DNA from: an uncultured Dokdonia sp.
Lineage (GTDB): Bacteria > Bacteroidota > Bacteroidia > Flavobacteriales > Flavobacteriaceae
Assembly (NCBI RefSeq): GCF_947492535.1
Contig: NZ_CANLNH010000012.1
Span: forward strand, 62,001 to 126,000
DNA: 64,000 bases
Direction of reading: 5' to 3'
Part shown: positions 9,042-37,206 of the stretch, piece after piece
Numbering within the stretch: the first letter of the stretch is position 1
How the letters are laid out: every line of letters starts with the position of its first letter
The notes under the pieces: model-generated
The model's database searches: none
Told to the model about the DNA's origin: nothing
The model's input: the letters and a program-made list of their open reading frames with translations, nothing else
Position numbers and translations under genes: made by a program

Positions 9042-9728
9042 ATGAAACCGGCACATATCAAATGCCAGCGATTAAAAGAAGTACGCCGTATTTATAAAAG
9101 ACAACGAGAGGTTTGGAAAGCACAACAAGCATTAGGATACACAAAATTAGATATTCCTATACGTGATGGCTGGTACAAAGAACTTGTTATTACTAAACGA
9201 ATAGCACGCTATAAAAATCAAGACGCTATGCTAGAAATCATAGCAAAACTTGACAAGCATGTTTGGGGAAAAACAAAAGAAGAGGCAAATGCAGCATGGT
9301 CTAAAAGAGTAACAGACCACCTCATCGTAAAAGAAGTCCCTACCATTAGTAAAAAACAATTCAGAAAACTAAGTGATAAAGCTAAATGTCTTTGTGTTCC
9401 TTTTCGGTATTATATCCGAAAACATACACTTAGAACTCGCTTTTATGTTCGGCTTCCAAAAGGAACCTATCGTGTCAAATACACTAGAGCGTACATCACA
9501 CACAGACGTAACATAGATCCATTATTAGAGCAAGAAGATGCCTTCTTGGATGGACTCCTCATGCGCAATGGATACTATGAGGCTGTCGAAAAATTAAGCA
9601 GATGGAGATCAAAATGGGACTGCTATGATAGAAGAGGCAGGAATTATATCAACTCAAAATTAAAAGGGTTGACTCATCGCGAAATCCAAGACATTATTAA
9701 TGAAGAATTATCATGGGAAAAAAACTAA
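9042..9728 (+). CDS. basic protein of unknown function, coupled to RtcB
   Basis: A 228-aa protein that I do not recognise. It is rich in Lys, Arg, Tyr and Trp, with clusters such as RRIYKRQREVWKAQQ and YRVKYTRAYITHRR, so binding to RNA is plausible. No catalytic motif is evident. Its stop codon overlaps the start of rtcB by 16 nt, which implies translational coupling and a role in the same repair pathway. It could be an adaptor that brings RNA or the ribosome to the ligase; this is inference from context only. Confidence 0.7.
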   Translation: MKPAHIKCQRLKEVRRIYKRQREVWKAQQALGYTKLDIPIRDGWYKELVITKRIARYKNQDAMLEIIAKLDKHVWGKTKEEANAAWSKRVTDHLIVKEVPTISKKQFRKLSDKAKCLCVPFRYYIRKHTLRTRFYVRLPKGTYRVKYTRAYITHRRNIDPLLEQEDAFLDGLLMRNGYYEAVEKLSRWRSKWDCYDRRGRNYINSKLKGLTHREIQDIINEELSWEKN

Positions 9729-11104
9729 GTGGAAAAGACCTAATCAAATTAGGCTTTCCAAAAAATAATAGCATCAATATCACTTTAGGTCAGATTAACA
9801 GATATCACAAACGGCTTAAAAAAGAACAAGTATTACAACAAGCAGCTTTGGTACTAGCAAATCCAAAGGAATATATAGGTGATGGTGTATGGGGTAAAAT
9901 AGCAGAGAGTCTTACAGATCCTGTAGTAGTCAAAAAACAAACACTACGATCTACACGAGTTCCTCATATGGTTTATGGAGAAAACGAGATAGATGATCAA
10001 GCAAAATACCAATTATACGATGCCTTAAAATTACCTGTAGCCGTCGCTGGCGCTTTAATGCCAGACGCACATAGCGGATATGGTTTGCCTATAGGCGGTG
10101 TGCTTGCCACAGATAATGCAGTGATTCCTTATGGAGTAGGTGTAGACATAGGATGTCGTATGAGCTTAACACTCTATCCTATTAAAATATCATATCTCAA
10201 AGGGAAGAAACATCAATTGGTCAATATGCTCTCAGAACATACCAAATTTGGCATGTATGAGACTCATAAAAACAAGCATGACCATGAGATATTTAGTCAT
10301 CATGCATTTAAAGATATTCCTTTAGCAAAAAGGCTTAAAGACAAAGCTTTTAAACAACTAGGAACGTCTGGAGGCGGAAATCACTTTGTAGAATTTGGAA
10401 GTGTACAAATTACAGATCCAAATAATGAGTGGGATTTAGCACCAGGTGAGTACTTAAGTTTATTATCACATAGCGGTTCACGAGGGTTAGGAGCTAATAT
10501 TGCAAAGCATTACACCTACCTCGCCACAAAGCAATGTCCGTTACCAAAACACGTACAACATCTAGCTTGGCTGGATTTAAATACACATGATGGACAAGAA
10601 TATTGGATCGCAATGAATCTTGCTGGTGATTATGCACAAGCATGTCATGATAATATTCATGCTCGAATAAGCAAACTGTTAGGTGCGCGTCCGTTAGCCA
10701 ATATTGCCAACCATCACAATTTTGCTTGGAAAGAGCAGATAGATGGAAAGGAATGTATTGTGCATCGTAAAGGAGCCACGCCTGCTGCCAAAGGAGAACT
10801 GGGCATCATCCCAGGATCAATGACGGCGCCAGGATACATTGTAAGAGGTCTTGGAAATCCAAACAGTTTACAATCGGCTTCACACGGAGCAGGTCGTTTG
10901 CACTCACGTCGTAAATGCAAAGAAAAATTTACCCAAAGTGCTATTAAAAAAGAGCTAGCCGCACATGATGTCACCCTTATAGGCGGAGGTGTAGATGAAG
11001 CACCTATGGCGTATAAAGACATCAAAAAAGTGATGGCAAATCAACAAGAACTCGTAGAAGTGGTAGGCACTTTTACACCAAAAATTGTTCGTATGGACAA
11101 GTAG
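9713..11104 (+). CDS. rtcB: RtcB-family RNA ligase
   Basis: A 463-aa RtcB ligase that joins 2',3'-cyclic phosphate or 3'-phosphate RNA ends to 5'-OH ends using GTP and Mn2+. Metal and active-site motifs are present: PDAHSGYG (118-120), D145/C148 in GVDIGC, N223/H224 in GGGNHF, H253 in SHSGSR, H334-H335 in NHHNF, and SHGAGR with the presumed guanylylated H391. It overlaps the basic protein upstream and is followed after 317 bp by prfH. RtcB2-PrfH pairs are known to repair ribosomes cut in the 16S decoding centre, and this gene is the likely RtcB2 of such a pair. Confidence 0.93.
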   Translation: MGKKLSGKDLIKLGFPKNNSINITLGQINRYHKRLKKEQVLQQAALVLANPKEYIGDGVWGKIAESLTDPVVVKKQTLRSTRVPHMVYGENEIDDQAKYQLYDALKLPVAVAGALMPDAHSGYGLPIGGVLATDNAVIPYGVGVDIGCRMSLTLYPIKISYLKGKKHQLVNMLSEHTKFGMYETHKNKHDHEIFSHHAFKDIPLAKRLKDKAFKQLGTSGGGNHFVEFGSVQITDPNNEWDLAPGEYLSLLSHSGSRGLGANIAKHYTYLATKQCPLPKHVQHLAWLDLNTHDGQEYWIAMNLAGDYAQACHDNIHARISKLLGARPLANIANHHNFAWKEQIDGKECIVHRKGATPAAKGELGIIPGSMTAPGYIVRGLGNPNSLQSASHGAGRLHSRRKCKEKFTQSAIKKELAAHDVTLIGGGVDEAPMAYKDIKKVMANQQELVEVVGTFTPKIVRMDK

Positions 11105-11132
11105 ATTTTTAGAAAGATATATCAAGAAAAAA

Positions 11133-11405
11133 GTAGTACTCATTTTCGTTTCCCCATCCCTAAAGGGTGCGAAAATTAGATTAATCAGATGATAAGAAAA
11201 AGACCTCCCTCTAGGGATGGGGTAAAAGTCTTTTTCGTAGTCGGTTTTAGTACTATGAATTTTAAACATATATCATTTAGGGCGTTACACTATGTTGCCC
11301 AAAAAGCAACATAGTGTCGGGCTTTCTGTTTCAATTCCTCGCCACACATAAAGTGTGTCTGTGGGATTTACACGGCAATCCCTAACGCATTCTTAAGAAT
11401 CGTTA
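11133..11405. other. highly structured rtcB-prfH intergenic region
   Basis: The 317-bp gap holds three strong inverted repeats: CCCCATCCCTA (11152-11162) with TAGGGATGGGG (11212-11222); ACACTATGTTGC (11287-11298) with GCAACATAGTGT (11306-11317); and a palindrome TAACG-C-ATTCTTAAGAAT-CGTTA (11383-11405) just upstream of the prfH start. They could act as an RNA switch, processing sites or a protein operator that uncouples prfH from rtcB. No gene is seen. Confidence 0.6.
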
Positions 11406-11421
11406 GAAAAAATTAGAAACA

Positions 11422-12111
11422 ATGGACACACTTATACAAATCACAGCAGGAAGAGGCCCTGCCGAATGTAATTGGGTGGTTGCAAAAGTATTAAAAGCCT
11501 TTATCGCAGCACTCAAAGAACATAATGGCAATCATGTTGTATTACAAAAACAACAAGCAGGCATCACCGCTGTACAATCAGTGATACTACGTATCTCAGG
11601 AAAGAATTTAGACACCTTTCTTTCCGAATGGATAGGCACGATACAATGGATTGGAAAATCCCCGTATCGAAAAAATCACAAGCGTAAAAATTGGTTTATA
11701 AAATTACAAGAAGTACCACAGCTAGAAACCACATCATTTCATGAGAAAGATGTCAAGTATCAAGCGATGCGTAGTACAGGTCCTGGAGGACAAAACGTAA
11801 ATAAAGTAAACTCGGCAGTGCGTGCTACACATATTCCTACAGGAATACAATGTGTTGCTATGGACAGCAGATCACAACACCAGAACAAAAAACTGGCGTT
11901 ACAACGTCTTAAAGATCAGTTTCAGATACACCATTTGGAACAATTGAAAGAGCAAGCCGCTACTACTTGGGAACAACACCTCAATATAGAACGAGGAAAC
12001 CCAATACAAGTCTTTAAAGGAAGTGATTTTAAACACCAAAAAAAGAACAAAAGTTACGCCTCAAAAAGGCAGTCACTTAAAAACGAATTAAAAAAGAAAT
12101 CATGGGAGTAA
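11422..12111 (+). CDS. prfH: peptide chain release factor H (PrfH)
   Basis: A 229-aa class I release-factor homologue with the GGQ peptidyl-tRNA hydrolysis motif at 122-124 (STGPGGQNVNKV) and a basic C-terminal tail, but without a codon-recognition domain of the RF1/RF2 type. The size matches PrfH, known to release nascent chains from ribosomes damaged at the decoding centre so that RtcB2 can religate 16S rRNA. It overlaps the next gene by 10 nt. Confidence 0.93.
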   Translation: MDTLIQITAGRGPAECNWVVAKVLKAFIAALKEHNGNHVVLQKQQAGITAVQSVILRISGKNLDTFLSEWIGTIQWIGKSPYRKNHKRKNWFIKLQEVPQLETTSFHEKDVKYQAMRSTGPGGQNVNKVNSAVRATHIPTGIQCVAMDSRSQHQNKKLALQRLKDQFQIHHLEQLKEQAATTWEQHLNIERGNPIQVFKGSDFKHQKKNKSYASKRQSLKNELKKKSWE

Positions 12112-12638
12112 CAATAGACAAATATATATTTCAAGCTTTGGATGCATACCCATACAACCTTGAAGAAACAATAGAATCTTTAAACTATGCACTGTCATAT
12201 GATGAGAAGAATGCTGTCGCTTTGTGTCTAATGGGTAGACTATATGCAGAACAATTGGGTAATTATGAAATGGCAAAAACATACTACGAACGTGCTTTAG
12301 CCGAAGATATGCATGCAGTAAATATCTATCCAAAATACATTAATGTATTGCTTTGGAATGAAGACTATGCCATTGCAGAAAAAGTAATCGATTTTGCACT
12401 TACCGTAAAAGGAACTGATAAAGCCGTATTGTACTTTAAAAAAGCCGTTTTATTTGAGAAAAAGAAAGCATATAAAGATGCATTGTCTTGTCTCAAAACA
12501 GCAAAGGTTCATACCTATAACACGCATTTTATGAACGATCTAGATTCCGAAAAGAATCGAATCAAAGAAAAAATGCCAAAAAAGAAGAAATCCAAAAAGA
12601 AAAAGAAAGATTCTTCTAAAAAGAAGAAAAAGAAATAA
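12102..12638 (+). CDS. TPR-like protein with lysine-rich tail
   Basis: A 178-aa protein with about three tetratricopeptide-like helical pairs (for example NAVALCLMGRLYAEQLGNYE and YYERALAEDMHAVNIYPKYI) and a C-terminal tail of about 25 residues almost entirely Lys and Ser. The tail suggests electrostatic binding to RNA or the ribosome. Translational overlap with prfH links it to ribosome rescue. TPR genes next to prfH-type operons seem plausible as adaptors, but I cannot name the family. Confidence 0.75.
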   Translation: MGVTIDKYIFQALDAYPYNLEETIESLNYALSYDEKNAVALCLMGRLYAEQLGNYEMAKTYYERALAEDMHAVNIYPKYINVLLWNEDYAIAEKVIDFALTVKGTDKAVLYFKKAVLFEKKKAYKDALSCLKTAKVHTYNTHFMNDLDSEKNRIKEKMPKKKKSKKKKKDSSKKKKKK

Positions 12639-14290: not shown

Positions 14291-17155
14291 CTACTCTTCT
14301 TCTAAAGCTTGATCATATTTTTCAAGTAAATCTTGAAAACGTTTTTCATTTTTATACTTTTCTTTAATATCATCATCTAACCAACTTGCTTTTGCTTTTA
14401 AGTGGAAAGATTTTTCTAATAATTCATAAAATTTTTCGGTATTCCCTAGAGATTCATAAATAGTAGATTTTGTACCATACAGAAAGCCATCTGTATCATT
14501 TAATTTTAGAGCTATATCTATAACCTTGAATGCCTCATCAATCTTATTTAATCTTCTTAGAGCATTAGCTTTGTTTGAGTATATATCTATTCGTTCATTA
14601 TCTATGCCTAGTGCTCTATCACAATCTCCTACCACTCCTTCATAATCTTCTAACCCACTCTTAGTCATAGCTCGATTTAGATAATAACTAATATTATTAT
14701 TATCTAAATCTATAGCTTTATCATTGTCTAAGAGCGCTTCAGAATATTTTTTTGAATCAAATTTAATTTCTGCCCTTCGATCAAAAAACATTGCTTCTTT
14801 ATCATCTAACTCTATAGCTTTATTATTATCTAAAAGTGCTTCAGAATATTTTTTTAATCTATGTTTTGAAATAGATCTGTTATAATAATACCCTGCAATA
14901 TCATTTTCTAATTGTATTGCTATATCAAAATCTTTTATAGATTCTACATAATATTTCAAATCACCTTTTACTACTCCTCTTTGGTGAAAATATCTTCCTA
15001 TTTGGTTGTTCAGTTTTATTGATTTATCTAAATATTTTATAGATGTTTTGTATTTCTTTTTTTTATGGTATAATATTCCTATTTTAAATAAATTATTATG
15101 GTCTTCTGGGTTTAAACTTTCTATACTTAAGCGTTTTTTTAAACTTTTATCAATATTCTTATCATTTTTTTCATAACATAAAACCAAATCTAAAAGAGCA
15201 GAAATATCATTTTCTTCGATTGTTAGTAATTGTTCATAATGGGTAATTGCCCTGCCCCAAAGTTCTTCCATCATGAATTGTCTTGCCAATGCACGGTGAT
15301 GTTCTATTGCGTTTAGTAAATAATTTTTTAAATTTTTAACCTCCACTATTGCTCCTTTTTCATTGATTGATTGATTAATGTCAGGATGATTCTCATAAAA
15401 ATTTAAAAATTCACTAGCATAATTTAAATAAGGTTCAAAAGCGATATGCATGGTAAATACAGATAAAGAGTCTTGAAGTTTCCCTTCATTTATCTGATTA
15501 TGCGATTTTTTTTCTACTATAATATTTTCCTCATTGCAAACTAAATATTTAAAAGAGTCAGGCAAAGGTATATCATACAAAAATTCAATAAAACCTTCAA
15601 TATCTTCTATGTTTTCATTATCGTATAGTTTATCTACAGAAGGGTTTTCTTTAAAGAATGGAAGAAAGTAATTAAAAGGATTATCAATAAAATAATCATT
15701 TTCAAAAATATATTTTCCTAAAACACTTTTTCTTTGCAATCCTATTTGCATGAAATAGATTATTTTTTTTAATGATTCTTGTATTTCAGGGTTTAATTTT
15801 AAACGTTCTATTTTTGATTCTAATTTTTTCTTATGTCGAATCCATCTATTACCTAAAAAATTTAAGACTATAAACAAGTAGGTAATAGCTTTCTGCCATA
15901 CTTTTGGTTCACTTTCATTTACAAAATCAATTAGCAAATCAATTTTTGTAATATCTATTTTCCTGTGATTTACAAGACTACATGCTAATGCACTTACAAT
16001 AACACTACGATGATACCATTGGTATGCCTTTTCGTTGACATCTTTTATTTTACTAATTTTCTGTTTAGTTAGATCACTTATTATCTCTGAATTATAAATG
16101 GTATCAAACAAATGTTCAAGTTCGTTTTGGTCATGATCTGGTATTTTAAAGTCAAGATTAAACTGCTGGGTGCGCAATTCTATCATTCGATCTTTGATTA
16201 CACGTAGCTCTTTATCGACTTTCTTTTTAAGATGATCTTCTTCTTCATCAAATTCTTCTTTTTTTTCATCAAACATTTTCTCTAAGAGAACAATGTCTTC
16301 TATTTTAGAAATATCTACATCTTCTTTTTCATTTGTAGTTTTTACTAGATTTCCTTTTGAATGTTCTTTTTTGGCTTCTATTAATTCATCTAATAAAGTA
16401 TCAAAAGATTCTTCCCAATCTTCAACGGGAACATCTTTCACACCATCTAAATTTGTAGTACGATTAGTAACAATATAATGAGTATTATTATGACCTTTAT
16501 ATATTTTATTTAAGAAATCTAATTGATCTTTTATAAAAGGGTCTTCCATACTAAAACCAAGAAAAAGGATCGTTTTAGTTTGTAGAAAACTTCTTAAACT
16601 CTGTGTAGCTGCATTTTCTTCAACATATGATTTTCTGTAATCACTTTCGAATAAAATACATTTTGTAGGATCAGAAATGTCACCATGCATTTTATACAAA
16701 AATGGATTTCCTTTGATTCCTAGTTTCTGTTGAAATTGATTATCGTGTGTATATGGCTTAATACCTTTAGGAAGTACTGCTTCTAAAGCTGTATCGTAAT
16801 TTGTAGTTATTATTTTATCACTTATCTGCCATAGCTTCTTATGTCTTTCAAGTTTGTCTTCGGGGTATTCTACTTTATTTATAACTGAATACAATATTTT
16901 TTCTGCTTCTGGTCTATGTCCCCTATCTTCAATTTGTTGTAAGACATCAAATACACTTATTGAGTTAGATTCCAATAAATCTATATTGTGTTTAAAATTC
17001 ACTAAAGACTTGTCCCCATATTCCTTATAAAGCTCCTCTAGTATTTTTATAATTAAGTTATTCCAATTAGGTATCCCTAATGGAATAGACATCCCCGCCC
17101 CAACAAAAAGAATTAAACTATCATCTGCAATTGCTTCCTTTATTTTTTCTATCAT
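14291..17155 (-). CDS. SIR2-domain protein with C-terminal TPR array
   Basis: A 954-aa protein. The N-terminal SIR2-like domain (about 1-240) shows the NAD-binding start LILFVGAGMSIPLG, TTNYDTALE, the KMHGDISDP motif and TILFLGFSMEDPF. A charged coiled-coil region (about 275-335) leads to a helical middle part, and the C-terminal third (about 630-945) consists of tetratricopeptide repeats (repeated NKAIELDDKEAMFFDRRAEI-type units). SIR2 domains fused to repeat sensors are frequent in anti-phage systems where they deplete NAD. It lies inside the RNA-repair island but on the opposite strand, so it may be an abortive-infection partner. Several TPR units are nearly identical, indicating recent repeat expansion. 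Confidence 0.85.
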   Translation of the reverse strand: MIEKIKEAIADDSLILFVGAGMSIPLGIPNWNNLIIKILEELYKEYGDKSLVNFKHNIDLLESNSISVFDVLQQIEDRGHRPEAEKILYSVINKVEYPEDKLERHKKLWQISDKIITTNYDTALEAVLPKGIKPYTHDNQFQQKLGIKGNPFLYKMHGDISDPTKCILFESDYRKSYVEENAATQSLRSFLQTKTILFLGFSMEDPFIKDQLDFLNKIYKGHNNTHYIVTNRTTNLDGVKDVPVEDWEESFDTLLDELIEAKKEHSKGNLVKTTNEKEDVDISKIEDIVLLEKMFDEKKEEFDEEEDHLKKKVDKELRVIKDRMIELRTQQFNLDFKIPDHDQNELEHLFDTIYNSEIISDLTKQKISKIKDVNEKAYQWYHRSVIVSALACSLVNHRKIDITKIDLLIDFVNESEPKVWQKAITYLFIVLNFLGNRWIRHKKKLESKIERLKLNPEIQESLKKIIYFMQIGLQRKSVLGKYIFENDYFIDNPFNYFLPFFKENPSVDKLYDNENIEDIEGFIEFLYDIPLPDSFKYLVCNEENIIVEKKSHNQINEGKLQDSLSVFTMHIAFEPYLNYASEFLNFYENHPDINQSINEKGAIVEVKNLKNYLLNAIEHHRALARQFMMEELWGRAITHYEQLLTIEENDISALLDLVLCYEKNDKNIDKSLKKRLSIESLNPEDHNNLFKIGILYHKKKKYKTSIKYLDKSIKLNNQIGRYFHQRGVVKGDLKYYVESIKDFDIAIQLENDIAGYYYNRSISKHRLKKYSEALLDNNKAIELDDKEAMFFDRRAEIKFDSKKYSEALLDNDKAIDLDNNNISYYLNRAMTKSGLEDYEGVVGDCDRALGIDNERIDIYSNKANALRRLNKIDEAFKVIDIALKLNDTDGFLYGTKSTIYESLGNTEKFYELLEKSFHLKAKASWLDDDIKEKYKNEKRFQDLLEKYDQALEEE

Positions 17156-17597: not shown

Positions 17598-18608
17598 CTA
17601 TTCCTTATCCTCATATTGAGATAAAGCGATTCTAAGTTTATGATAAATACGCTTTCGAAGATGGTTTGGTTTAAGGACTTCAATACTATCTCCAAATCCT
17701 AAAATGAGGCGTTCCAATTCAAAATTGTGTTGTACCTGAATTTCAAAAATAGTCCCGTCTTCAGTTTTTTTGATTTCTCTTTGAGAAGCATGAAAAGGTT
17801 TTGTAGAAACATACGGTGCATTTTTACGATCTACTCTAAAGGTTACTTTTTGTGCTCGTACATTTTCAGATACCGTCACCCCAACTACATCTTTATAATA
17901 GCTATCGCCTTGCACTTCATTGTCTTCATACGTAATGTCATCTTTGATGGTGATACCTAGCATACGGTCTAAGGCCAGTGTGGTATACTTGCTTTTTGAA
18001 AGCGCTAAGACAAACCAGCGATTATTGAATTCTTTCAATAATTGAGGATGCACAATCATGGTACTTTCACTACGTGCTTTAAAGGATTTATATGAGACCT
18101 CAATTACTTTTTTATGTTGAATGGCTTCATAAATCACATCAATATATTCCAATCCTTTGAGCTGTTCGTTTTTATCTAAATGAATAATAGATCGCCTATT
18201 TTCTTGAGAAGAATAGACAGAGTCTTCCAGTCGCTGTAACACACCATCCATTTCTTTAAAAAGGGAAAAGTCTTTAAACTCACGCAAAATCTGGATCGCT
18301 TCATTCATGACTTTGACATCCTTGTCGGTGACGGGAATATTCATGATGCTATAATCTTCTTCGGTATAGCGATAGTATTTACGTTTATAGACTTCGATAG
18401 GTGCATTATAACCCAACTTATCACTTCGCATGGTTTGGATATCCAGTTGTACAGTACGTTTACTCACGTACACATCTTTGCCTTCATATTCATATAATGC
18501 ATCAGAACAGGCATCAATCAAATCATCAAGGGTCCATTGTCTGTATTTATTACGTAAACATTGATCAATGGTTTTATATCTAATAAGAGCATTTTTATTG
18601 GCAGCCAT
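17598..18608 (-). CDS. WYL-domain transcriptional regulator
   Basis: A 336-aa regulator of the PafC/YafY type. The N-terminal winged helix-turn-helix part (about 1-95) includes YVSKRTVQLDIQTMRSDKLG. The WYL domain (about 155-240) has the family hallmarks VSYKSFKA, HPQLLKEFNNRWFVLAL and LALDRMLGI, followed by a C-terminal WCX-like extension. WYL domains sense nucleic acids or nucleotides in several defence and DNA-damage systems. The gene is divergent from the TROVE gene, with a palindromic operator between them that recurs at three other island promoters, so this is the best candidate for the island regulator. Confidence 0.88.
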   Translation of the reverse strand: MAANKNALIRYKTIDQCLRNKYRQWTLDDLIDACSDALYEYEGKDVYVSKRTVQLDIQTMRSDKLGYNAPIEVYKRKYYRYTEEDYSIMNIPVTDKDVKVMNEAIQILREFKDFSLFKEMDGVLQRLEDSVYSSQENRRSIIHLDKNEQLKGLEYIDVIYEAIQHKKVIEVSYKSFKARSESTMIVHPQLLKEFNNRWFVLALSKSKYTTLALDRMLGITIKDDITYEDNEVQGDSYYKDVVGVTVSENVRAQKVTFRVDRKNAPYVSTKPFHASQREIKKTEDGTIFEIQVQHNFELERLILGFGDSIEVLKPNHLRKRIYHKLRIALSQYEDKE

Positions 18609-18712: not shown

Positions 18713-20236
18713 ATGAAATTTAATGTATTTACAAAGACAAAGAAACAAGTAAAAAACTACGAAGGAGCAAAAGCATATAGACTTACTCCTAAAATGGAAC
18801 TGTACACAGCTGTTGTTAATTCTACCTTAGAAAAGACAAGCTATGAAAAAGGACAGGACAGATTACAAAGAATCATTGATTTAGTTCAGAAGAATGATCC
18901 TTACTTTGTAGCACAACTGGCTGTTTATGCACGTCAAAAAATGTATTTACGATCTATTCCTATTGTATTAGCAGTAGAATTATCTAAAATACATAGTGGA
19001 GATAATCTAGTGAGTAGAACAGTAAATGGAGTGATCCAACGTGCTGACGAAATCACTGAGTTACTAGCCTACTACCAAGTAGCTAATCAAAGAACAGGCA
19101 CTAAAAAGTTGAATAAACTTTCTAAGCAAGTTCAAAAAGGGATTGTGATGGCATTAAATAAGTTTGATGCCTACCAGTTTGCAAAGTATAATAGACAAAC
19201 GGAAGTGACATTTAAAGATGCTATCTTCTTAACACACCCAAAGGCAAAAGACGATGCACAACAAGCAATTTTTAATCATGTTATTCAAGGTACACTAGAA
19301 GCACCGTATACATGGGAAGTAGAACTATCAAAACTAGGGCAACAATCCTTTAAAAATGCAAAAGAAAAGCAAAAAGCATTTACAACGCAATGGGAAGCTT
19401 TAATTGATAGTAAGAAGTTAGGGTATATGGCATTAATGCGTAACCTAAGAAATATTTTACAAGCAGATGTAAGTGCAGTGCATATTAGTAAAATAGCAGA
19501 TACACTTACAGATCCATATCATGTAAAAAGGTCAAAACAATTTCCTTTTCGTTTTATGGCGGCATATCAAGAATTAATGAGTATTAAATCCTCATATACA
19601 CCTTACGTATTAGATGCGCTAGAAACAGCCATTAAATTAAGTGTAGAAAATATAAAAGGATTTGAACTAGATACTAAAGTTGTGATTGCTTGTGATGTAT
19701 CAGGATCGATGATGCAATCTATTTCTAAAAATAGCAAGATTCAAGCCTATGATATTGGTCTTGTATTGGGAATGCTATTACAACACAAAAGTGATAATAT
19801 CATTACAGGTCTTTTTGGAGATCGATGGAAGCGATACATTTTACCAAAAGGGGATGTATTATCCAATGTGATGAAGCTTAAAAAGATTGAAGGTGAAGTT
19901 GGCTACTCTACAAATGGTTATAAAGTAATTCAAGATTTGAATTCAAGAAAACGAATTGTAGATAAGGTGATGATTTTTACCGATTGTCAATTATGGAATA
20001 GCGGTCATTACAATTCAGATGCACATATTGCCACTGAATGGAAGCAATACAAACGTATCGCTCCTAATGCCAAACTATACATTTTTGATCTAATGGGATA
20101 CAAAAACGCACCACTTAACATCACACATGATGATGTACACTTAATTGGTGGTTGGAGTGATAAAACTTTTGAAGTACTAGATGCTATCGAAAATGGAGCT
20201 TCAGCAATCCAGCATATACAGGAGCAATCCTTATAA
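18713..20236 (+). CDS. rsr: TROVE-domain protein, bacterial Ro60 (Rsr)
   Basis: A 507-aa orthologue of the Ro60 autoantigen. The TROVE module (about 15-315) forms the HEAT-like ring that holds misfolded RNA ends and Y RNAs. The vWA domain (about 320-500) has a complete MIDAS start DVSGSM at 328-333 and MIFTDCQLWN later. Bacterial Rsr works with Y RNAs and PNPase in RNA quality control. Nine Y-RNA-like genes follow immediately downstream on the same strand, which is exactly the expected genomic partner arrangement. Confidence 0.93.
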   Translation: MKFNVFTKTKKQVKNYEGAKAYRLTPKMELYTAVVNSTLEKTSYEKGQDRLQRIIDLVQKNDPYFVAQLAVYARQKMYLRSIPIVLAVELSKIHSGDNLVSRTVNGVIQRADEITELLAYYQVANQRTGTKKLNKLSKQVQKGIVMALNKFDAYQFAKYNRQTEVTFKDAIFLTHPKAKDDAQQAIFNHVIQGTLEAPYTWEVELSKLGQQSFKNAKEKQKAFTTQWEALIDSKKLGYMALMRNLRNILQADVSAVHISKIADTLTDPYHVKRSKQFPFRFMAAYQELMSIKSSYTPYVLDALETAIKLSVENIKGFELDTKVVIACDVSGSMMQSISKNSKIQAYDIGLVLGMLLQHKSDNIITGLFGDRWKRYILPKGDVLSNVMKLKKIEGEVGYSTNGYKVIQDLNSRKRIVDKVMIFTDCQLWNSGHYNSDAHIATEWKQYKRIAPNAKLYIFDLMGYKNAPLNITHDDVHLIGGWSDKTFEVLDAIENGASAIQHIQEQSL

Positions 20237-20243
20237 TAATGAT

Positions 20244-20273
20244 AAGCTCACATCTAAAATGGGTGTGAGCTTT
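20244..20273 (+). terminator. hairpin after rsr
   Basis: AAGCTCACA / TGTGAGCTT stem with an 11-nt loop, 8 bp after the TROVE stop codon. The T run is poor, so it may be a processing site or a partial terminator separating rsr from the Y-RNA array. Confidence 0.55.
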
Positions 20274-20301
20274 CACAAAAGTTCTTTGACAAAAATATTA
20301 A

Positions 20302-20524
20302 AAACAAGTGCCGTAAAAAAGGTTACTTCGTAACTATAACGATCCTAAGGTAGAGTAACACAGGTGACTGTGCTAGCGAAGTCGGATTAAAAACCGACAG
20401 GGTGAAAAGTATGTTTTATACATACGTAAGTCTCTCTGAGATGTCAAATCACCGGTTCACTGTCCTATGGGATAAGAACGACGCTCATGTATGAGCATCG
20501 CCTTTTTTGCTTTTCGCCTTGTTT
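20302..20524 (+). ncRNA. Y-RNA-like unit U0 with 23S rRNA helix 69-71 mimic
   Basis: Closing stem AAACAAG (20302-20308) / CTTGTTT (20518-20524), next to a U-G/C-G step and a bulged C, then the array motif GCCGTA-N8-TACTTCG. From 20329 to 20353 the sequence matches the universally conserved 23S rRNA H69-H70 strand at 24 of 25 positions (CGTAACTATAACG then ATCCTAAGGTAG). After a 20-nt hairpin insertion, TAGCGAA (20374) and the H71-like GTCGG...CCGAC (20381-20398) continue the 23S order. The rest (20399-20515) is structured and not identified; it includes a GCTCAT/ATGAGC hairpin. Confidence 0.75.
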
Positions 20525-20536
20525 ATTTTAAAATCT

Positions 20537-20700
20537 ATAAAGTAAGTGTCGTAGATAAGTATTACTTCGTTTCATCTAATATCAGGGTCGTAGGTTCGAT
20601 TCCTACCTTCCTCACTAAAAAACATACTATTTTTGGGGAAGTAGCTCAGTTGGTTAGAGCATGATACCTAACACACTTCTCGCCAGTAACCTTACTTTAT
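20537..20700 (+). ncRNA. Y-RNA-like unit U1 with permuted tRNA mimic
   Basis: Closing stem ATAAAGTAAG / CTTACTTTAT (10 bp, perfect) with bulged C, and motif GTCGTA-N9-TACTTCG. Inside, in permuted order: T arm GTAGG-TTCGATT-CCTAC, 3' acceptor CTTCCTC (20607-20613), a 21-nt linker, 5' acceptor GGGGAAG (20635-20641) and D arm GCTC...GAGC. The acceptor strands pair 7/7 with one G-U. No anticodon arm: its place is taken by the Y stem. Confidence 0.8.
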
Positions 20701-20727
20701 TAAAAACATATATTTACTATTAGGAAA

Positions 20728-20861
20728 CTAAAGTGACGTAAATTACGTGATACTTCGCAGGTTCGACTCCTAATCTCTCCACTAGTTTCAACACAACAAT
20801 ACCATGGGGATATTATGCTCAATTTGGTGAGCAAGATTCACTAGTTGCCTTTTTCCTTTAG
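20728..20861 (+). ncRNA. Y-RNA-like unit U2 with permuted tRNA mimic
   Basis: Closing stem CTAAAG / CTTTAG with motif GACGTA-N10-TACTTCG. T-arm-like GCAGG-TTCGACT-CCTAA overlaps the end of the motif. The 3' acceptor TCTCTCC (20774-20780) pairs with 5' acceptor GGGGATA (20806-20812) at 6 of 7 positions. A D-like arm TGCTC...GAGCA follows. This is a weaker copy than U1, U3 and U5. Confidence 0.7.
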
Positions 20862-20890
20862 GTTCTAAATAGTAAAACAAATAATAGTAC

Positions 20891-21070
20891 AAATAAGTGC
20901 CGTAAATTAAAGATACTTCGCACTTCTAATACCGTGGTTGTGGGCCTGCCTGCCGGCAAAGGCAGGTTCGAGTCCCATCACTCTCACTATAAAGATTAAT
21001 ATACAAATGAGAGTGTAGCTCAAGATGGATAGAGCACGTAAAACTACTTTGATTGCCTTTTGCCTTGTTT
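20891..21070 (+). ncRNA. Y-RNA-like unit U3 with permuted tRNA mimic and T-loop insertion
   Basis: Closing stem AAATAAG / CTTGTTT, bulged C, motif GCCGTA-N9-TACTTCG. T-stem GTGGG/CCCAT is separated from its loop TTCGAGT by a 22-nt GC-rich palindrome (20945-20966), the same insertion point as in tRNA-Lys and tRNA-Gly at 36 kb. The 3' acceptor CACTCTC (20979-20985) pairs perfectly with 5' acceptor GAGAGTG (21009-21015), then TA and D arm GCTC...GAGC. Confidence 0.8.
20945..20966. repeat. GC-rich palindrome in T-loop of unit U3
   Basis: CCTGCCTGCC...AAAGGCAGG, 22 nt. It is identical to the reverse complement of 8827-8848 and inserted between the 5' T-stem strand and TTCGA. Confidence 0.85.
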
Positions 21071-21087
21071 ATTACTATAAAATTAAA

Positions 21088-21223
21088 AAAAGAGTGTCGT
21101 AAAAGAATGATACTTCGTATGAATACTGGAAACACAGGTGTGACTCCTGTCCTTAGAAATGAGGTCGTCTAGGATAACATAGGACGCCAGAGAAAAGCCA
21201 TTCTTTGTATTATTACCTCTTTT
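21088..21223 (+). ncRNA. Y-RNA-like unit U4 with permuted tRNA mimic
   Basis: Closing stem AAAAGAG / CTCTTTT with bulged C and motif GTCGTA-N9-TACTTCG. T arm ACAGG-TGTGACT-CCTGT has an atypical loop. The acceptor is reduced to CCTTA / TGAGG, directly closed by a GAAA tetraloop, which makes a continuous permuted hairpin. D arm CGTC...GACG follows. Confidence 0.75.
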
Positions 21224-21241
21224 AATTCTAAAATAATAAAA

Positions 21242-21400
21242 AAGTAAGCGCCGTAGATAAAAGTTACTTCGCACTCAGGATGCCGTGGTTGTAGGTTCGA
21301 GTCCTACCACTCCTTCTAAAAAACAGATAACAAGAAAAGGAGTGTAGCTCAAAGAGGTAGAGCACGATTATAATTTCTTTTATTGCTCATTGCCTTACTT
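21242..21400 (+). ncRNA. Y-RNA-like unit U5 with permuted tRNA mimic
   Basis: Closing stem AAGTAAG / CTTACTT. Here the usual U-R step is C-G, a compensatory change that supports the stem. Motif GCCGTA-N9-TACTTCG. T arm GTAGG-TTCGAGT-CCTAC; 3' acceptor CACTCCT (21308-21314) pairs perfectly with 5' acceptor AGGAGTG (21338-21344); D arm GCTC...GAGC. Confidence 0.8.
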
Positions 21401-21419
21401 ATATTTAAAATATACTCAA

Positions 21420-21491
21420 AAAAGAGTGTCGTAGAAAAGTGTTACTTCGTATTCAAAACAAAAATTCACTTTTCAATTTGTTACCTCTTTT
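21420..21491 (+). ncRNA. Y-RNA-like unit U6, minimal form without tRNA mimic
   Basis: Closing stem AAAAGAG / CTCTTTT with bulged C and motif GTCGTA-N9-TACTTCG, but only 72 nt long. No T arm or acceptor is present. AAAAGTG/CACTTTT inside can extend the stem. It is a bare Y module. Confidence 0.7.
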
Positions 21492-21495
21492 CTAA

Positions 21496-21590
21496 AAGAA
21501 TGTGTCGTTAGTATAATCATACTTCGTTCATAGGCTGATTTTGTTCGGGTTCGAATCCCGCATAAGGATTATATGATCGTTACCATTCTT
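21496..21590 (+). ncRNA. Y-RNA-like unit U7, reduced
   Basis: Closing stem AAGAATG / CATTCTT with bulged C and motif GTCGTT-N10-TACTTCG. A T arm CGGG-TTCGAAT-CCCG is present, followed by only a short CATA/TATG hairpin in the acceptor position. Confidence 0.7.
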
Positions 21591-21599
21591 AATATTATA

Positions 21600-21740
21600 A
21601 AAAAACAGTAATGCCGTAGTTATAAAATACTTCGTCACCAAAAACGATGGGAGGATTAGTTCTTAGAAACTAAACTGGGTTCGATTCCCAGCAGGACAAG
21701 CCCAATTTACTTTTATTACAATTTTTGCTTACTGTTTTTT
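21600..21740 (+). ncRNA. Y-RNA-like unit U8, last of the array
   Basis: Closing stem AAAAAACAGTAA / TTACTGTTTTTT (12 bp, perfect) with a bulged C. The 3' strand ends in six T, so this stem probably doubles as the terminator of the array. Motif GCCGTA-N9-TACTTCG; T arm CTGGG-TTCGATT-CCCAG. A TTAGTT/AACTAA hairpin precedes the T arm; the acceptor is unclear. Confidence 0.72.
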
Positions 21741-22921: not shown

Positions 22922-22932
22922 TAAATAACAAA

Positions 22933-23138
22933 CCCTCTTTAGCATAAAGGGAAGTGCTGTGGTAAAAGATTTTGATTCGTAACCACGGAGTGATTGGATG
23001 ATGTCGTTAGTGATACGCTCGCTAATGAATAGATTTTGCAGAAGCACCGAAATGAACAGGATTCAAAGTAGGGAAGCGCATTTAGAGCCAATCTGTTCGC
23101 AAATCGCGAAAGTCCCAGTTCGAATCTGGGAAGAGGGA
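22933..23138 (+). ncRNA. 206-nt tRNA-like RNA with expanded variable region
   Basis: Ends pair as a tRNA acceptor: CCCTCTT (22933-22939) with AAGAGGG (23131-23137), followed by discriminator A. TA at positions 8-9, a D arm GCAT-N8-GTGC with GGG in the loop, and T arm CCCAG-TTCGAAT-CTGGG directly before the 3' acceptor are all canonical. The anticodon-arm region GTGGT...ACCAC has an 18-nt loop, and about 125 nt fill the variable region, closed by GATTGG/CCAATC and containing GTCGTTAGT...TACGCTCG, which resembles the Y-unit motif. It is the 5' leader of the first RlaP gene. Not permuted, unlike the array units. Confidence 0.75.
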
Positions 23139-23154
23139 CTAAAAAGAAATAACA

Positions 23155-23892
23155 ATGAAAACAAGACTTACACATATAGAAAAAGATCGCAATGTCAAGA
23201 TACTATTCGCATGCGAATCAGGCAGTAGAGCCTGGGGATTTGCTTCTCCAGACAGTGACTATGACGTACGATTCTTATACACAAAACCACTCCCTTGGTA
23301 TCTCTCTATCTCAGACAAACGAGATACGATAGACATCATGGATGGTGACTTTGATGCCGTAGGATGGGAACTTCGCAAGAGTTTACTCCTACTTAAAAAA
23401 TCCAATGTTCCTGCAGTAGAACACCTCTTCTCTCCTATTATTTATAAAGGCAATGAAGAACTATTGACAGAACTACGTGGCATCGCAACAGACTGTTTCT
23501 CTCCTATTGCTTCCATGTTTCATTACCTCAGTATGAGTAAGAAATATGAAGAAAAAATAACAGCAGACACAGTGAAGTTGAAGAATCTTTTTTATGCCTT
23601 GCGCACTGCCATGGCAGGAAAATGGATTTTGGAATACGGGACTATGCCTCCTGTACGCTTTCGCGAAATGCTACCCTTAGTCACTACCAATATCGCAGAT
23701 GAGATAGAACATCTCATGGACATAAAATCTAAAAATGCCGAAAGTTATGTGCATAAACGACCTGAAATTGTATGCAACTTCGTTTCAGAAGTCATCGCAA
23801 CCAATGATCGATATGCAAAAACACTTGCTAACGGAAAACCAGATACAGAACGTATCAACCGCTTTCTATACAAGTGCATCACTGAAAGCTAA
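23155..23892 (+). CDS. RlaP-type nucleotidyltransferase
   Basis: A 245-aa pol-beta-fold nucleotidyltransferase of the RlaP family (RNA-ligase-associated predicted NTase). The catalytic signature is ESGSRAWGFASPDSDYDVRF (about 22-41): glycine-serine motif plus the D-x-D metal ligands. The C-terminal half is helical. RlaP genes are repeatedly linked to RtcB and Rnl ligases and are thought to act on RNA ends. The ATG lies 17 nt after the tRNA-like RNA. A second RlaP paralogue lies 573 bp downstream. Confidence 0.85.
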   Translation: MKTRLTHIEKDRNVKILFACESGSRAWGFASPDSDYDVRFLYTKPLPWYLSISDKRDTIDIMDGDFDAVGWELRKSLLLLKKSNVPAVEHLFSPIIYKGNEELLTELRGIATDCFSPIASMFHYLSMSKKYEEKITADTVKLKNLFYALRTAMAGKWILEYGTMPPVRFREMLPLVTTNIADEIEHLMDIKSKNAESYVHKRPEIVCNFVSEVIATNDRYAKTLANGKPDTERINRFLYKCITES

Positions 23893-24126: not shown

Positions 24127-24468
24127 ATGAAAACACAAACAGGGTATAAATATCATATAGAACAAGCCCTTATAAAAAACAATTGGAAAATTATTGAAGC
24201 AACTATTTGTAATGCTAATATCTGGGAGTCAGAATACTGGATCGTAACAACAGTTCATAACCCAGAAATCAGTTTATATTTTAGTTTTAATAAAACATGG
24301 CAATACCAATTTTCAGAAGTAACGATCTCAGATATGAATGCTTCTGAATATACACGTATTACCTCTTTATATTTATCTAGAGGAAGATTCAGTAAAGGGT
24401 TACAGAAATGTATAACCGATCTTACTACCTTTAGAAATACAGTAACACATCAAAAAGTAATAGCATGA
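24127..24468 (+). CDS. hypothetical protein (113 aa)
   Basis: I do not recognise this protein. It is a small alpha/beta protein with many aromatics (ISLYFSFNKTWQYQF). Its stop overlaps the start of the second RlaP gene as ATGA, implying coupled translation and a shared function. The 234-bp gap upstream contains a flavobacterial GTCATTCTGAATTT palindrome and a GCTGAGCTTGTCGAAG element. Confidence 0.65.
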   Translation: MKTQTGYKYHIEQALIKNNWKIIEATICNANIWESEYWIVTTVHNPEISLYFSFNKTWQYQFSEVTISDMNASEYTRITSLYLSRGRFSKGLQKCITDLTTFRNTVTHQKVIA

Positions 24469-25529
24469 AAACAATAGCAGACCTTAAAGCATCCGATTGC
24501 ATCCTATTTGAATGCATTAGTGGCAGTAAAGCCTACGGACTGGATACAGCTACCTCGGATACCGATATCCGAGGGGTTTTCATACTTCCTAAGGAACTAT
24601 TTTATAGTATGGAGTATCTGGAGCAAATCAATGATGCAACCAATGATGTGGTATATTATGAATTGCGAAAGTTCATCTCTTTACTCTCAAAAAATAATCC
24701 AAATATTTTGGAGTTACTCAACGTGCCTGAAGATTGTGTTTTGCTAAAAGATCCCTTGTTTGATCGTATCAAAATGGACTATTTCTTGTCAAAATTGTGT
24801 AAAAACTCTTTTGCAAACTATGCCTATACACAAATCAAAAAAGCACGCGGACTCCATAAAAAAATAGTCAATCCCATGGCTAAAGAGCGTAAAACTGTAT
24901 TGGATTTTTGTTATGTAAGAGATACCAAAACTTCCATTCCTCTAAATGAATATTTGGAGGAAAATAAATTACTAGAGACGTATTGTGGTTTGGTGAAGAT
25001 TCCACATATGAAAGATTGTTACAATCTCTTTTATGGAGCAAACAAAGGCTATCAAGGTGTTGCAAGAGCAAATGCCAATGACGTATGTCTGAGTTCTGTA
25101 GAAAAAGAAGAAGTCCCTATCGCCTTACTCTATTGTAATATAGATGGATATGCTGCGTATTGTAAGAAGTATAAAGAATACTGGGATTGGGTCGCCAAAA
25201 GAAATGAAGCACGTTATGAAAATAATATAGCACATGGAAAGAATTATGATACCAAAAACATGATGCATACCTTTCGGTTATTACATATGGCCAAAGAGAT
25301 TGCACAAGATGGAATGATCCATGTACGAAGACCCGATCGTGATTTTTTGTTAGGGATTAAACAAGGGGTCTTTGAATATGATGACTTGGTTGCGAAAGCG
25401 GAAGTTTTAAAAGTGGAATTAGATATATTATATGATACTTCTGAGCTGATAGAAAAACCAGATATAGCACAAGTGGATGAATTATTGGTGAATATTAGAA
25501 GTGAGTTTTATACAAAAAATTTAAATTAA
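24465..25529 (+). CDS. RlaP-type nucleotidyltransferase, second copy
   Basis: A 354-aa protein with the same N-terminal signature as the first copy: ECISGSKAYGLDTATSDTDIRGVF (about 16-39), including the D-x-D metal ligands. The C-terminal region is longer (basic, histidine-containing LHMAKEIAQDGMIHVRRPDRDF). It is diverged from the first copy, so the two probably act on different substrates or steps. It ends 68 bp before the second RtcB gene. Confidence 0.85.
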   Translation: MKTIADLKASDCILFECISGSKAYGLDTATSDTDIRGVFILPKELFYSMEYLEQINDATNDVVYYELRKFISLLSKNNPNILELLNVPEDCVLLKDPLFDRIKMDYFLSKLCKNSFANYAYTQIKKARGLHKKIVNPMAKERKTVLDFCYVRDTKTSIPLNEYLEENKLLETYCGLVKIPHMKDCYNLFYGANKGYQGVARANANDVCLSSVEKEEVPIALLYCNIDGYAAYCKKYKEYWDWVAKRNEARYENNIAHGKNYDTKNMMHTFRLLHMAKEIAQDGMIHVRRPDRDFLLGIKQGVFEYDDLVAKAEVLKVELDILYDTSELIEKPDIAQVDELLVNIRSEFYTKNLN

Positions 25530-27004
<1,475 letters not shown>

Positions 27005-35959: not shown

Positions 35960-36054
35960 TGACATGTAACTCAACTGGCAGAGTACCCAGCTTTTAACTG
36001 GGAGGTTATGAGCCTGCCTGCCGGCATAGGCAGGTTCAAATCTCATCGTGTCAA
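35960..36054 (+). tRNA. tRNA-Lys(TTT) interrupted in the T loop
   Basis: Acceptor TGACATG/CGTGTCA, D arm, anticodon arm CCCAG-CTTTTAA-CTGGG (anticodon TTT) and T-stem ATGAG/CTCAT are intact. A 22-nt GC-rich palindrome (36013-36034) is inserted exactly between the T-stem 5' strand and loop TTCAAAT. Without it the gene is a normal 73-nt tRNA. No CCA is encoded, as for the other tRNAs here. Confidence 0.85.
36013..36034. repeat. GC-rich palindrome inside tRNA-Lys
   Basis: CCTGCCTGCC...ATAGGCAGG. Self-complementary ends (CCTGCC/GGCAGG) would form an extra hairpin on the T arm. Confidence 0.85.
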
Positions 36055-36092
36055 CTTTATCTCAAATTTTGTAGTAGAAAATTTTAGTATAT

Positions 36093-36179
36093 GGAAGGGC
36101 AAGCCAATGGGCGGTGGTCGCTGTTTTGAAAACAGTTAGGAGCTAACGACTCGTGTGGGTTCGACTCCCACTCCTTCCG
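36093..36179 (+). tRNA. tRNA-Ser(TGA)
   Basis: Acceptor GGAAGGG/TCCTTCC, anticodon loop TTTGAAA (TGA), long class II variable arm (TAGGAGCTAACGACTCG), T arm GTGGG-TTCGACT-CCCAC. Looks intact. Confidence 0.88.
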
Positions 36180-36183
36180 CTTT

Positions 36184-36271
36184 GGAGAATAGGCAAATAT
36201 TGGCTTTGTTGCACTTGTCTGCTAAACAAGTTCACGTTAGCGTGATGAAGGTTCGATCCCTTTGTTCTCCG
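36184..36271 (+). tRNA. tRNA-Ser(GCT)
   Basis: Acceptor GGAGAAT/GTTCTCC, anticodon arm ACTTGT-CTGCTAA-ACAAGT (GCT), class II variable arm (CACG...CGTG), T arm GAAGG-TTCGATC-CCTTT. Four nt after tRNA-Ser(TGA). Confidence 0.85.
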
Positions 36272-36277
36272 CATTTT

Positions 36278-36350
36278 GATACTGTAGCTTAACTGGTAGA
36301 GCCGGGAGCTGTTAACTCTCAAAGTATAGGTTCAAATCCTATCAGTATCG
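36278..36350 (+). tRNA. tRNA-Asn(GTT)
   Basis: Acceptor GATACTG/CAGTATC, anticodon loop CTGTTAA (GTT), T arm ATAGG-TTCAAA-TCCTAT. Looks intact. Confidence 0.88.
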
Positions 36351-36354
36351 CAAA

Positions 36355-36429
36355 AGACAAGGTGGCTGAATGGTTTAGGCAACGGATTGCAAACCCGTTT
36401 CATATGAGTTCGAATCTCATCCTTGTCTC
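36355..36429 (+). tRNA. tRNA-Cys(GCA)
   Basis: Acceptor AGACAAG/CTTGTCT, anticodon loop TTGCAAA (GCA) on a stem with one mismatch, T arm ATGAG-TTCGAAT-CTCAT. Its last 18 nt are duplicated at 36503-36520. Confidence 0.85.
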
Positions 36430-36520
36430 AATGATTGAAACAGCATCAAACTTGTTTGAATACTGTGGAAATCCATTTTGTGACTTTATGAGAAAGCGTA
36501 ACAATCTCATCCTTGTCTCA
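36430..36520 (+). other. spacer hairpin plus duplicated tRNA-Cys 3' end
   Basis: After tRNA-Cys comes a spacer with ACAG...CTGT and CAAAC/GTTTG pairing, then ATGAG-N13-CTCATCCTTGTCTCA (36488-36520). The end repeats the tRNA-Cys T-stem and acceptor 3' strand, but the 7-nt T loop is replaced by a longer unrelated loop. Two more cases follow tRNA-Pro and tRNA-Leu(TAG). Confidence 0.65.
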
Positions 36521-36527
36521 AACACCT

Positions 36528-36610
36528 GGAAGTATTGAGCAATTGGTTGGCTCGCCTGACTGTAAATCAGGTCTCGCGAGAGCATGTAGGTTCGAGTCCT
36601 ACTACTTCCA
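36528..36610 (+). tRNA. tRNA-Tyr(GTA)
   Basis: Acceptor GGAAGTA/TACTTCC, anticodon loop CTGTAAA (GTA), long variable arm (TCTCGCGAGAGC), T arm GTAGG-TTCGAGT-CCTAC. Confidence 0.88.
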
Positions 36611-36616
36611 CAATAA

Positions 36617-36710
36617 GCAGTTATGGTGTTAATGGTAGCATAATAGACTTCCACTCTTTAGGTCTGAGCCTGCCTGCCGGCATAGGCAGGTTCGAATCTC
36701 AGTAACTGCT
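36617..36710 (+). tRNA. tRNA-Gly(TCC) interrupted in the T loop
   Basis: Acceptor GCAGTTA/TAACTGC, anticodon loop CTTCCAC (TCC), T-stem CTGAG/CTCAG. A 22-nt GC-rich palindrome (36669-36690), identical to the one in tRNA-Lys, sits between CTGAG and TTCGAAT. Otherwise a normal tRNA. Confidence 0.85.
36669..36690. repeat. GC-rich palindrome inside tRNA-Gly
   Basis: Identical 22-nt copy of 36013-36034 at the same tRNA position. Confidence 0.85.
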
Positions 36711-36729
36711 CTTAAAAAAATAATAATAT

Positions 36730-37066: not shown

Positions 37067-37093
37067 AATAAAGTATTCTTGAATGATTTTCAA

Positions 37094-37189: not shown

Positions 37190-37206
37190 CAATTATATAA
37201 CAACAA

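Follow-up and report, generated by a model that had tools for sequence, protein, structure and literature searches.

The DNA stretch analysed here (hereinafter, the window) consists of 64,000 nucleotides (nt) from an uncultured Dokdonia sp. (Flavobacteriaceae; contig NZ_CANLNH010000012.1, positions 62,001 to 126,000) and encodes a TROVE/Ro60 family protein that is followed, on the same strand, by an array of nine short structured units (U0 to U8; Table 1), whose identity as Y RNAs is close to certain. Judged from its sequence, each unit is a conserved module tied to Ro60 genes that carries an interchangeable cargo, in several cases resembling a circularly permuted tRNA and, in U0, opening with a segment of 23S rRNA.

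Table 1. Features of the Ro60 locus and its surroundings (window coordinates)
Feature	Position	Strand	Basis
TROVE/Ro60 (Rsr-like) protein, 507 amino acids, probable vWA-type domain	18713..20236	+	Pfam TROVE, E 2.4e-30
Terminator-like hairpin and GTTCTTTGA	20237-20300
U0: Y module + 23S rRNA helix-69/70-like cargo (~20330-20499)	20300..20527	+	24/25 nt as in own 23S rRNA
U1: Y module + permuted tRNA (T arm, acceptor, linker, acceptor, D arm)	20537..20700	+	acceptor 7/7; YrlA 39.5 bits
U2: Y module, GACGTA variant (A opposite U), weakened permuted tRNA-like cargo	20720..20868	+	closing pairs; permutation by eye
U3: Y module + permuted tRNA, extra GC-rich stretch in T arm	20888..21073	+	acceptor 7/7
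U4: Y module + short tRNA-like cargo	21085..21226	+	permutation by eye
U5: Y module + permuted tRNA	21241..21402	+	acceptor 7/7; YrlA 39.5 bits; row 1 of permuted-unit alignment A4
U6: bare Y module without tRNA-like cargo	21418..21492	+
U7: Y module, GTCGTT variant, T-arm-only cargo	21494..21592	+
U8: Y module, non-permuted cargo (short G-C stem, hairpin, T arm)	21600..21740	+	12 outer pairs
RtcB ligase, PrfH release factor and TPR protein	9713..12638	+	Pfam
SIR2-like N-terminal domain + TPR repeats	14291-17155	-	ThsA-like in PADLOC
WYL/WCX protein, divergent from Ro60, candidate regulator	17598..18608	-	Pfam; relative in 27/80 loci
Second structured RNA	22928-23146	+
RlaP-family nucleotidyltransferases	23155-23892, 24465-25529	+	Pfam
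Second RtcB	25598-27004	+	Pfam
Second divergent tRNA set	35960-49615	+	ARAGORN, Rfam
T4 Rnl2-type RNA ligase	44157-45182

The window protein has the TROVE domain (106.6 bits against the Pfam cut-off of 23) in common with the known Ro60/Rsr proteins and probably carries a vWA-like domain, and its relatives in PDB are 9l5y, 9kop and 2nvo. The vWA_Ro60 match is slightly below the cut-off (26.1 against 27.7 bits), with the DVSGS motif at residues 328-332, and compared with the known Rsr proteins, the window protein falls short of the NCBIfam equivalog cut-off (47 against 900 bits).

All nine units reported downstream of the TROVE gene in the initial annotation were located, with the first G of their boxes at positions 20310, 20548, 20735, 20899, 21096, 21250, 21428, 21504 and 21613. 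Each contains a GNCGT[A/T] box, a spacer of 8-10 nt and TACTTCG, so that the spacer and the second half of the originally described signature, GYCGTA-N8-10-TACTTCG, hold throughout, whereas the box deviates in U2 and U7. The pattern scan of the genome that contains the window gives eight exact motif matches, seven of these inside the array; an extra box pair at 23356, within an RlaP gene and without a closing stem, was discarded as a chance match. The presence of one rRNA-like unit and one bare stem (U0 and U6) was likewise borne out. ARAGORN makes no tRNA call in 20300-21740, and the Rfam tRNA model reaches only 20.1 bits there, against the required 29. Between the Ro60 stop and the array, the terminator-like hairpin is followed by GTTCTTTGA, which ends up some 10 nt ahead of U0; GTTCTTTGA, possibly a promoter element of the array, is also present in three relative loci (L045, L046 and L010), and GTTCATTGA is found in two others (L047 and L048).

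A conserved closing module linked to Ro60

Relatives of the window Ro60 were collected by a profile search, with a two-member Ro60 alignment, of the contigs of one genome per species (84,980 species), and the best 80 of the 357 relatives provide the loci used throughout; together with the window, these make 81 sources. The 80 loci come from Aquimarina, Kordia, Flavobacterium, Chryseobacterium, Pontibacter, Saprospiraceae, Cytophagales and others, the closest relatives being those from Aquimarina (80-83% identity), and were scanned along with flanks of up to 10 kilobases (kb), contigs often being shorter. The distribution of Ro60 is patchy, with matches in 2 of the 299 genomes of the family (including the genome that contains the window) and in 31 of the 395 genomes of the phylum sample.

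The reading of the module that fits these sequences runs from the 5' end through an outer stem, a bulged base, a GY dinucleotide pairing with RC, a CGUA loop, an inner stem of about 8 bp and UACUUCG to the cargo, on the far side of which would follow the inner stem strand, about 8 nt, RC and the outer stem strand. The 80 loci contain 230 exact motifs, with a spacer of 9 nt in 224 and T as the base before the box in 228; within the window, the bulged 5' base is T in eight of the nine units and C in U5. GY pairs with RC in all nine window units (G-C in each, followed by C-G in four, U-A in four and A-U in one, the GACGTA unit), and the location of the GAC variant of U2 opposite a U agrees with the prediction of this reading. 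The extra C that had been placed on the 3' strand was accordingly abandoned, the bulged 5' base and the GY-RC pairs being the better explanation.

To each candidate unit, a score was assigned that is the sum of the outer and inner closing-stem scores. Among the 411 candidate units of the relatives and the window, 294 score at least 14, compared with 11 when a random 3' stretch is substituted, and all nine window units reach this level, so that the claim of an individual closing stem for each unit holds, as does the conservation of that pairing in relatives. When the 3' end is set by the inner stem alone, at least six of the seven outer pairs form in 150 of the 224 units, against 41 of 224 with the 5' strands swapped. 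The originally noted covariation of neighbouring pairs (U-A, U-G, C-G) is apparent in the relatives: in the 294 units, the Y-R position is C-G in 147, U-A in 122, U-G in 18 and something else in 7, given that the score itself rewards this pair. In units not picked on the pair, a standard pair is found in 173 of 224, against 140 of 224 after swapping, the margin being reduced by the assumption of a single fixed spacing.

The module goes along with Ro60. In the phylum sample, where motif positions relative to Ro60 were read by hand, 23 genomes (the window's own included) encode a close Ro60 (at least 55% identity), and 19 of these carry the exact motif on the same strand, at most 1.75 kb downstream, against none of the eight genomes with a divergent Ro60. 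The exact motif occurs two or more times in 69 of the 81 sources. Two hallmarks of YrlA, the known bacterial Y RNA with a tRNA-like domain, were thus found, namely the position beside the Ro60 gene and the end-paired stem followed by an internal loop and an inner stem. The array length, initially thought to be new, is surpassed in a Chryseobacterium locus (L080) that carries 11 units with a score of at least 12.

Permuted tRNA cargo

In what was sorted as permuted cargo, the T arm precedes the D arm, an order found in U1, U3 and U5 and, by pattern, in 103 of the 371 units with a score of at least 12 (a level also reached by 55 of the 411 controls), and absent from U0, U6, U7 and U8; U7 and U8 possess a T arm without the permuted D arm. 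The initial annotation had extended the permutation to all of U1 to U5. This stands for U1, U3 and U5, where all seven pairs of the permuted acceptor form, and is seen by eye only in U2, with a weak T arm, and U4, with a short acceptor. The permutation itself is the already known layout of YrlA, for which Rfam gives the order T arm, acceptor hairpin, D arm.

The structure was assessed in alignment A4, composed of 20 units hand-picked for spread from 77 permuted units with a score of at least 14 and cargo of 75-115 nt. These units had been preselected by outer and inner stem scores and by T- and D-arm patterns, and therefore those helices are favoured in A4; the acceptor was not used in picking. 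RNAalifold applied to the 20 units yields the same structure as was drawn by hand from U5, and the stems, T arm, permuted acceptor and D arm are paired in 97.2% of the cells. Both sides have changed in 25 of the 33 pairs, including all seven acceptor pairs, and the covariation of 0.678 compares with 0.210 in shuffled alignments (0 of 500 reach the observed value) and at most 0.157 when the structure is slid. The T-arm GGUUC shows no variation and the D-loop GG almost none, in units that had been picked on the T- and D-arm patterns. In the wider set, the permuted acceptor forms all seven pairs in 74 of 101 units, against a mean of 21 with swapped strands (2 of the 103 permuted units were too short and were omitted). 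In this class, the sequences indicate that the module replaces the anticodon loop of a permuted tRNA, such that the elbow and the acceptor stem are kept, and the anticodon and the free 3' end are lost.

The origin of such units as functionless, decayed fragments of tRNA or rRNA genes gathered beside a tRNA array would be in line with the tRNA genes found in the flanks of 25 of the 80 loci (at least three in 18), but decay accounts neither for the permuted order nor for the shared closing module or the seven acceptor pairs that changed on both sides without having been used in picking; the stem scores, the covariation and the swapped-strand test rule out chance and tRNA debris for practical purposes. 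The Y RNA identity, with pairs of the permuted tRNA-like domains covarying in relatives, thus stands as initially annotated.

A different tRNA had been proposed as the model for each copy, and as worded, this is unsupported and only partly right. Compared with the 51 distinct tRNAs of the genome, U1, U3 and U5 share the same nearest sequences, tRNA-Ala(GGC) and tRNA-Thr(UGU), in either order; U2, U4, U7 and U8 score 20-23, not much more than the rRNA-like U0 at 17.5. A suspected resemblance between the U4 D arm and tRNA-Glu found no support in the similarity scores. U2 shares a BLAST cluster with four relative loci.

The 23S rRNA-like cargo and other cargo classes

The strongest new element of the array is U0, which, as far as its sequence and that of its relatives indicate, has a covarying cargo of about 165 nt that opens with the helix 69/70 sequence of 23S rRNA (24 of 25 nt identical to the 23S rRNA of the same genome). 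The class, for which a CCTAAGGTAGC-type string downstream of the motif served as the criterion, is represented in 15 of the 80 loci and the window, and its members match this 23S rRNA over 23-33 nt at 91-100% identity (27 of 27 nt in four Aquimarina and 33 of 33 in L090), apart from the L123 member, which has no 23S match. Past these first 23-33 nt, the remaining cargo of the class shows no rRNA match, that is, no wider homology to large subunit rRNA. The alignment of 15 members (A2, from which L054 was left out on account of a large insert) supports eleven helices, of which nine belong to the cargo; both sides have changed in 35 of the 60 pairs, among them 23 of the 43 within the cargo. Covariation is 0.402 against 0.194 in shuffles, with 0 of 500 reaching the observed value; when additional pair types are counted instead, 21 of the 500 shuffles perform equally well. 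The string CCUAAGGUAG is invariant in the class but served to define it. A search of the genome with the U0 cargo (E up to 0.001) returns only U0, at a level where the 23S match is invisible as well. A CCTAAGGTAGC-like match on the minus strand of L110 is outside any Y array and was dropped.

Sorting the cargo of the 371 units, with D arms undercounted, gives 103 permuted units with both T and D arms, 152 with the T arm only, 52 short ones, 51 others, 11 that contain the full helix-69 motif and 2 with the D arm only. One non-permuted class, GGGG...CCCC, has a stem around a hairpin and a T arm, and forms a BLAST cluster of 27 sources; U8 is assigned to this class by structure and is outside the cluster. 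Among its 15 aligned units (A3; L063 and L113 were left out, and U8 and its Aquimarina counterpart L045 were added despite failing the pattern), 19 of 32 pairs have changed on both sides, though only 4 of the 16 cargo pairs. A further class, with a GAATAACAG core and neither T nor D arm, was observed in nine Chryseobacterium loci (L073, L080, L083, L089, L091, L113, L117, L120 and L121). Short likenesses to 16S rRNA in L103 and L118 (18 nt, E 0.002) were judged weak.

This variety bears on the possibility that the units are gates or stabilisers only, with the Y stem closing the Ro60 channel, the tRNA-like parts protecting the RNA or aiding its processing, and array growth and cargo diversity arising as side effects of duplication and recombination. 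Bare and T-arm-only units are indeed common, and the common nearest tRNAs of U1, U3 and U5 fit as well; the 23S-like cargo, however, keeps a fold of its own, as judged by its changed pairs, and the GGGG...CCCC cargo points, with weaker support, in the same direction, which makes this explanation rather improbable.

Relationship to known Y RNAs

Likely Y RNAs near Ro60 were reportedly described by Chen and colleagues in 2014 in more than 250 bacterial and phage species, each with at least one that is tRNA-like. Like YrlA (Rfam RF02553; Salmonella yrlBA; Deinococcus Y RNA), the window units are located beside Ro60 and combine an end-paired module, with an internal loop and an inner stem, with a tRNA-like domain in which the T arm comes first, then the acceptor hairpin and then the D arm. 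They differ in the module, which is GYCGUA-N9-UACUUCG compared with the Rfam consensus gaAUGC...CUAc, and in forming arrays of many units with further cargo classes, one of them 23S rRNA-like. The best YrlA score in the eight relative loci scanned is 47.3 bits (gathering score 69), and a plasmid rtcR-Ro60-RtcB locus of Methylosinus has a YrlA unit that, at 49.9 bits, is likewise below gathering, along with further YrlA-type units, seen by eye, between Ro60 and RtcB. At the gathering score, Rfam picks up none of these RNAs in the window or the eight scanned loci, and they have therefore probably been missed in annotation.

YrlA acts as a tether between Rsr and PNPase, and tRNA enzymes modify its tRNA-like domain (PMC8394870); ribonucleoproteins of Ro60 with Y RNAs have been immunoprecipitated from Bacteroides thetaiotaomicron (PMC11277228); and TROVE proteins are reported to occur together with RNA repair genes in some jumbo phages (PMC7824862). 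A literature search, which did not include the main subscription papers on bacterial Y RNAs, found neither rRNA-like Y RNAs nor such arrays described in the available portions of its sources.

In a set of 11 additional Ro60 loci that belong to phages, plasmids or viral contigs (L042-L044 and L137-L144), the exact motif GNCGTA-N9-TACTTCG was found only in L139, the Caulobacter jumbo phage CcrColossus (JX100810). Its six-unit array (1334-2430) is upstream of the TROVE gene, whereas that of the window is downstream, and as in the window, its units, GGCGTA-N9-T[AT]CTTCG with exact TACTTCG in four, have strong closing stems beside a TROVE gene. Each has 10-11 module pairs, including both GY-RC pairs, and at least three carry, by eye, permuted tRNA cargo; the sequence CCTAAGGTAG was not found in this locus. 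The only RNA gene annotated over these units is one tRNA-Gln.

The RNA-repair island

The window is an RNA-repair island, containing RtcB, PrfH (213.1 bits against a cut-off of 166.65), a TPR protein, an RNase_T exonuclease, a SIR2-TPR protein, the WYL protein, two RlaP-family proteins, a second RtcB and Rnl2. In the flanks of the 80 loci, repair neighbours include WYL in 27, RNase_T in 25, Rnl2 in 17, RtcB in 15 and RlaP in 7-8. Ro60, Y RNAs and RtcB are found together, as here, in the already known rsr-yrlBA-rtcBA operon of Salmonella (PMC7790460), and the combination of PrfH and RtcB with a TPR gene is that of the PrfH-RtcB systems (PMC6514570); compared with both, the window adds WYL beside Ro60, as well as Rnl2, RlaP and a second tRNA set. 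The gene for the SIR2-TPR protein lies between the PrfH-RtcB genes and the WYL-Ro60 pair.

The second tRNA set comprises 16 tRNAs found by ARAGORN and one extra found by Rfam only, and surrounds the Rnl2 gene. The 16 tRNAs have a similarity of only 0.43-0.68 to the main tRNAs with the same anticodon, and the set possibly represents stand-by tRNAs for use after tRNA cleavage.

Possible functions of the array

The array is a diversified variant of bacterial Y RNAs, which, on sequence grounds, would probably serve as Ro60 adaptors or as ribotoxin decoys. The best overall explanation, with a probability of roughly 0.6, is that the locus provides the adjoining Ro60 with a diversified set of Y RNAs, in which the module is combined with cargos that would recruit RNA-handling proteins. 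Ro60 would hold the Y module, and the cargo would attract proteins that normally recognise tRNA elbows or the helix 69/70 region of 23S rRNA, candidates being repair ligases, nucleotidyltransferases, exonucleases and modifying enzymes, which might in this way be brought to the damaged RNA bound by Ro60, in conjunction with the adjoining repair genes. The adaptor mechanism as such is put forward tentatively, at somewhat less than even odds.

It is favoured over a decoy role, raised for YrlA by Hughes et al. 2020 (PMC7790460), in which the cargos would competitively inhibit toxins that cleave tRNA or rRNA, displaying a tRNA body or 23S helix 69/70 without the cleavable anticodon loop and shielding the translation machinery during repair. 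An island in which repair genes are accompanied by a divergent second tRNA set is what would be expected of an anti-ribotoxin locus, and the cargo variety would suit an arms race. Yet, the anticodon loop, which many tRNA toxins cut, is the part that the cargos are missing, no toxin was matched to any cargo, and no sarcin-ricin, decoding-site or 530-loop motifs were found in the 83 loci L042-L124, a search that did not include the window; on balance, decoys appear unlikely.

Several observations weigh against the combination of Y module and adaptor cargo. The best YrlA score in the window is 39.5 bits, with the Rfam gathering score at 69. Four of the 23 genomes with a close Ro60 (G372, G396, G429 and G480) have no exact motif nearby, and of the 80 genomes with a motif match in the phylum sample of 395, 61 have it away from any close Ro60; 47 of these are single matches, and a reversed-pattern control yields scattered matches of the same kind. 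One genome without a Ro60 match, G648, has nine motif matches within 600 nt, mostly 68 nt apart, and with such matches away from Ro60, the motif alone does not prove a Y RNA. This cluster (contig C22, 35028-35604; nine matches to GCCGTAGAGACGCGATACTTCG), the only one among the 61 genomes, is probably an unrelated repeat. The flanks of 65 of the 80 loci lack RtcB, and the T-arm-only and nearly empty units (152 and 52 of the 371) would be explained equally well by a simple tether or gate. In L073, L083, L102 and L123, the helix-69 loop is shortened, and this loop therefore cannot be the whole of the recognised feature.

The Bacteroidota Ro60 might be the hub of a modular library of RNA mimics. 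A single unchanging module that binds Ro60 would then present exchangeable imitations of parts of the translation machinery, namely the tRNA elbow and acceptor and 23S helix 69/70, and each of these would have its own target of RNA damage, to which it guides Ro60 or which it shields, with at least one jumbo phage possessing such an array of its own; this broader proposal is put at somewhat less than even odds. With many natural variants on one module in a single genome, the purpose of the tRNA-like part of bacterial Y RNAs becomes a comparative question. These variants, including the rRNA-based one, share an island with repair enzymes, and the rRNA-like cargo raises the possibility that ribosomes, and not only tRNAs, are addressed by Y RNAs.

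A second structured RNA near the array

Another conserved structured RNA, without an Rfam match above gathering in the window, precedes the first RlaP gene. Its frame is that of a tRNA in the normal order (acceptor, D arm, T arm), except that a structured insert of about 140 nt replaces the anticodon arm. Besides the window, it is present in 13 of the 80 loci (L047, L048, L051, L052, L063, L074, L079, L086, L098, L099, L104, L106 and L124; the short matches in L073, L109 and L115 were left out of alignment A5), and in 6 of the 14 cases (the window, L048, L051, L079, L099 and L104), it lies at most about 0.25 kb upstream of RlaP, Ro60 or RtcB. Of its 37 predicted pairs, 22 have changed on both sides.

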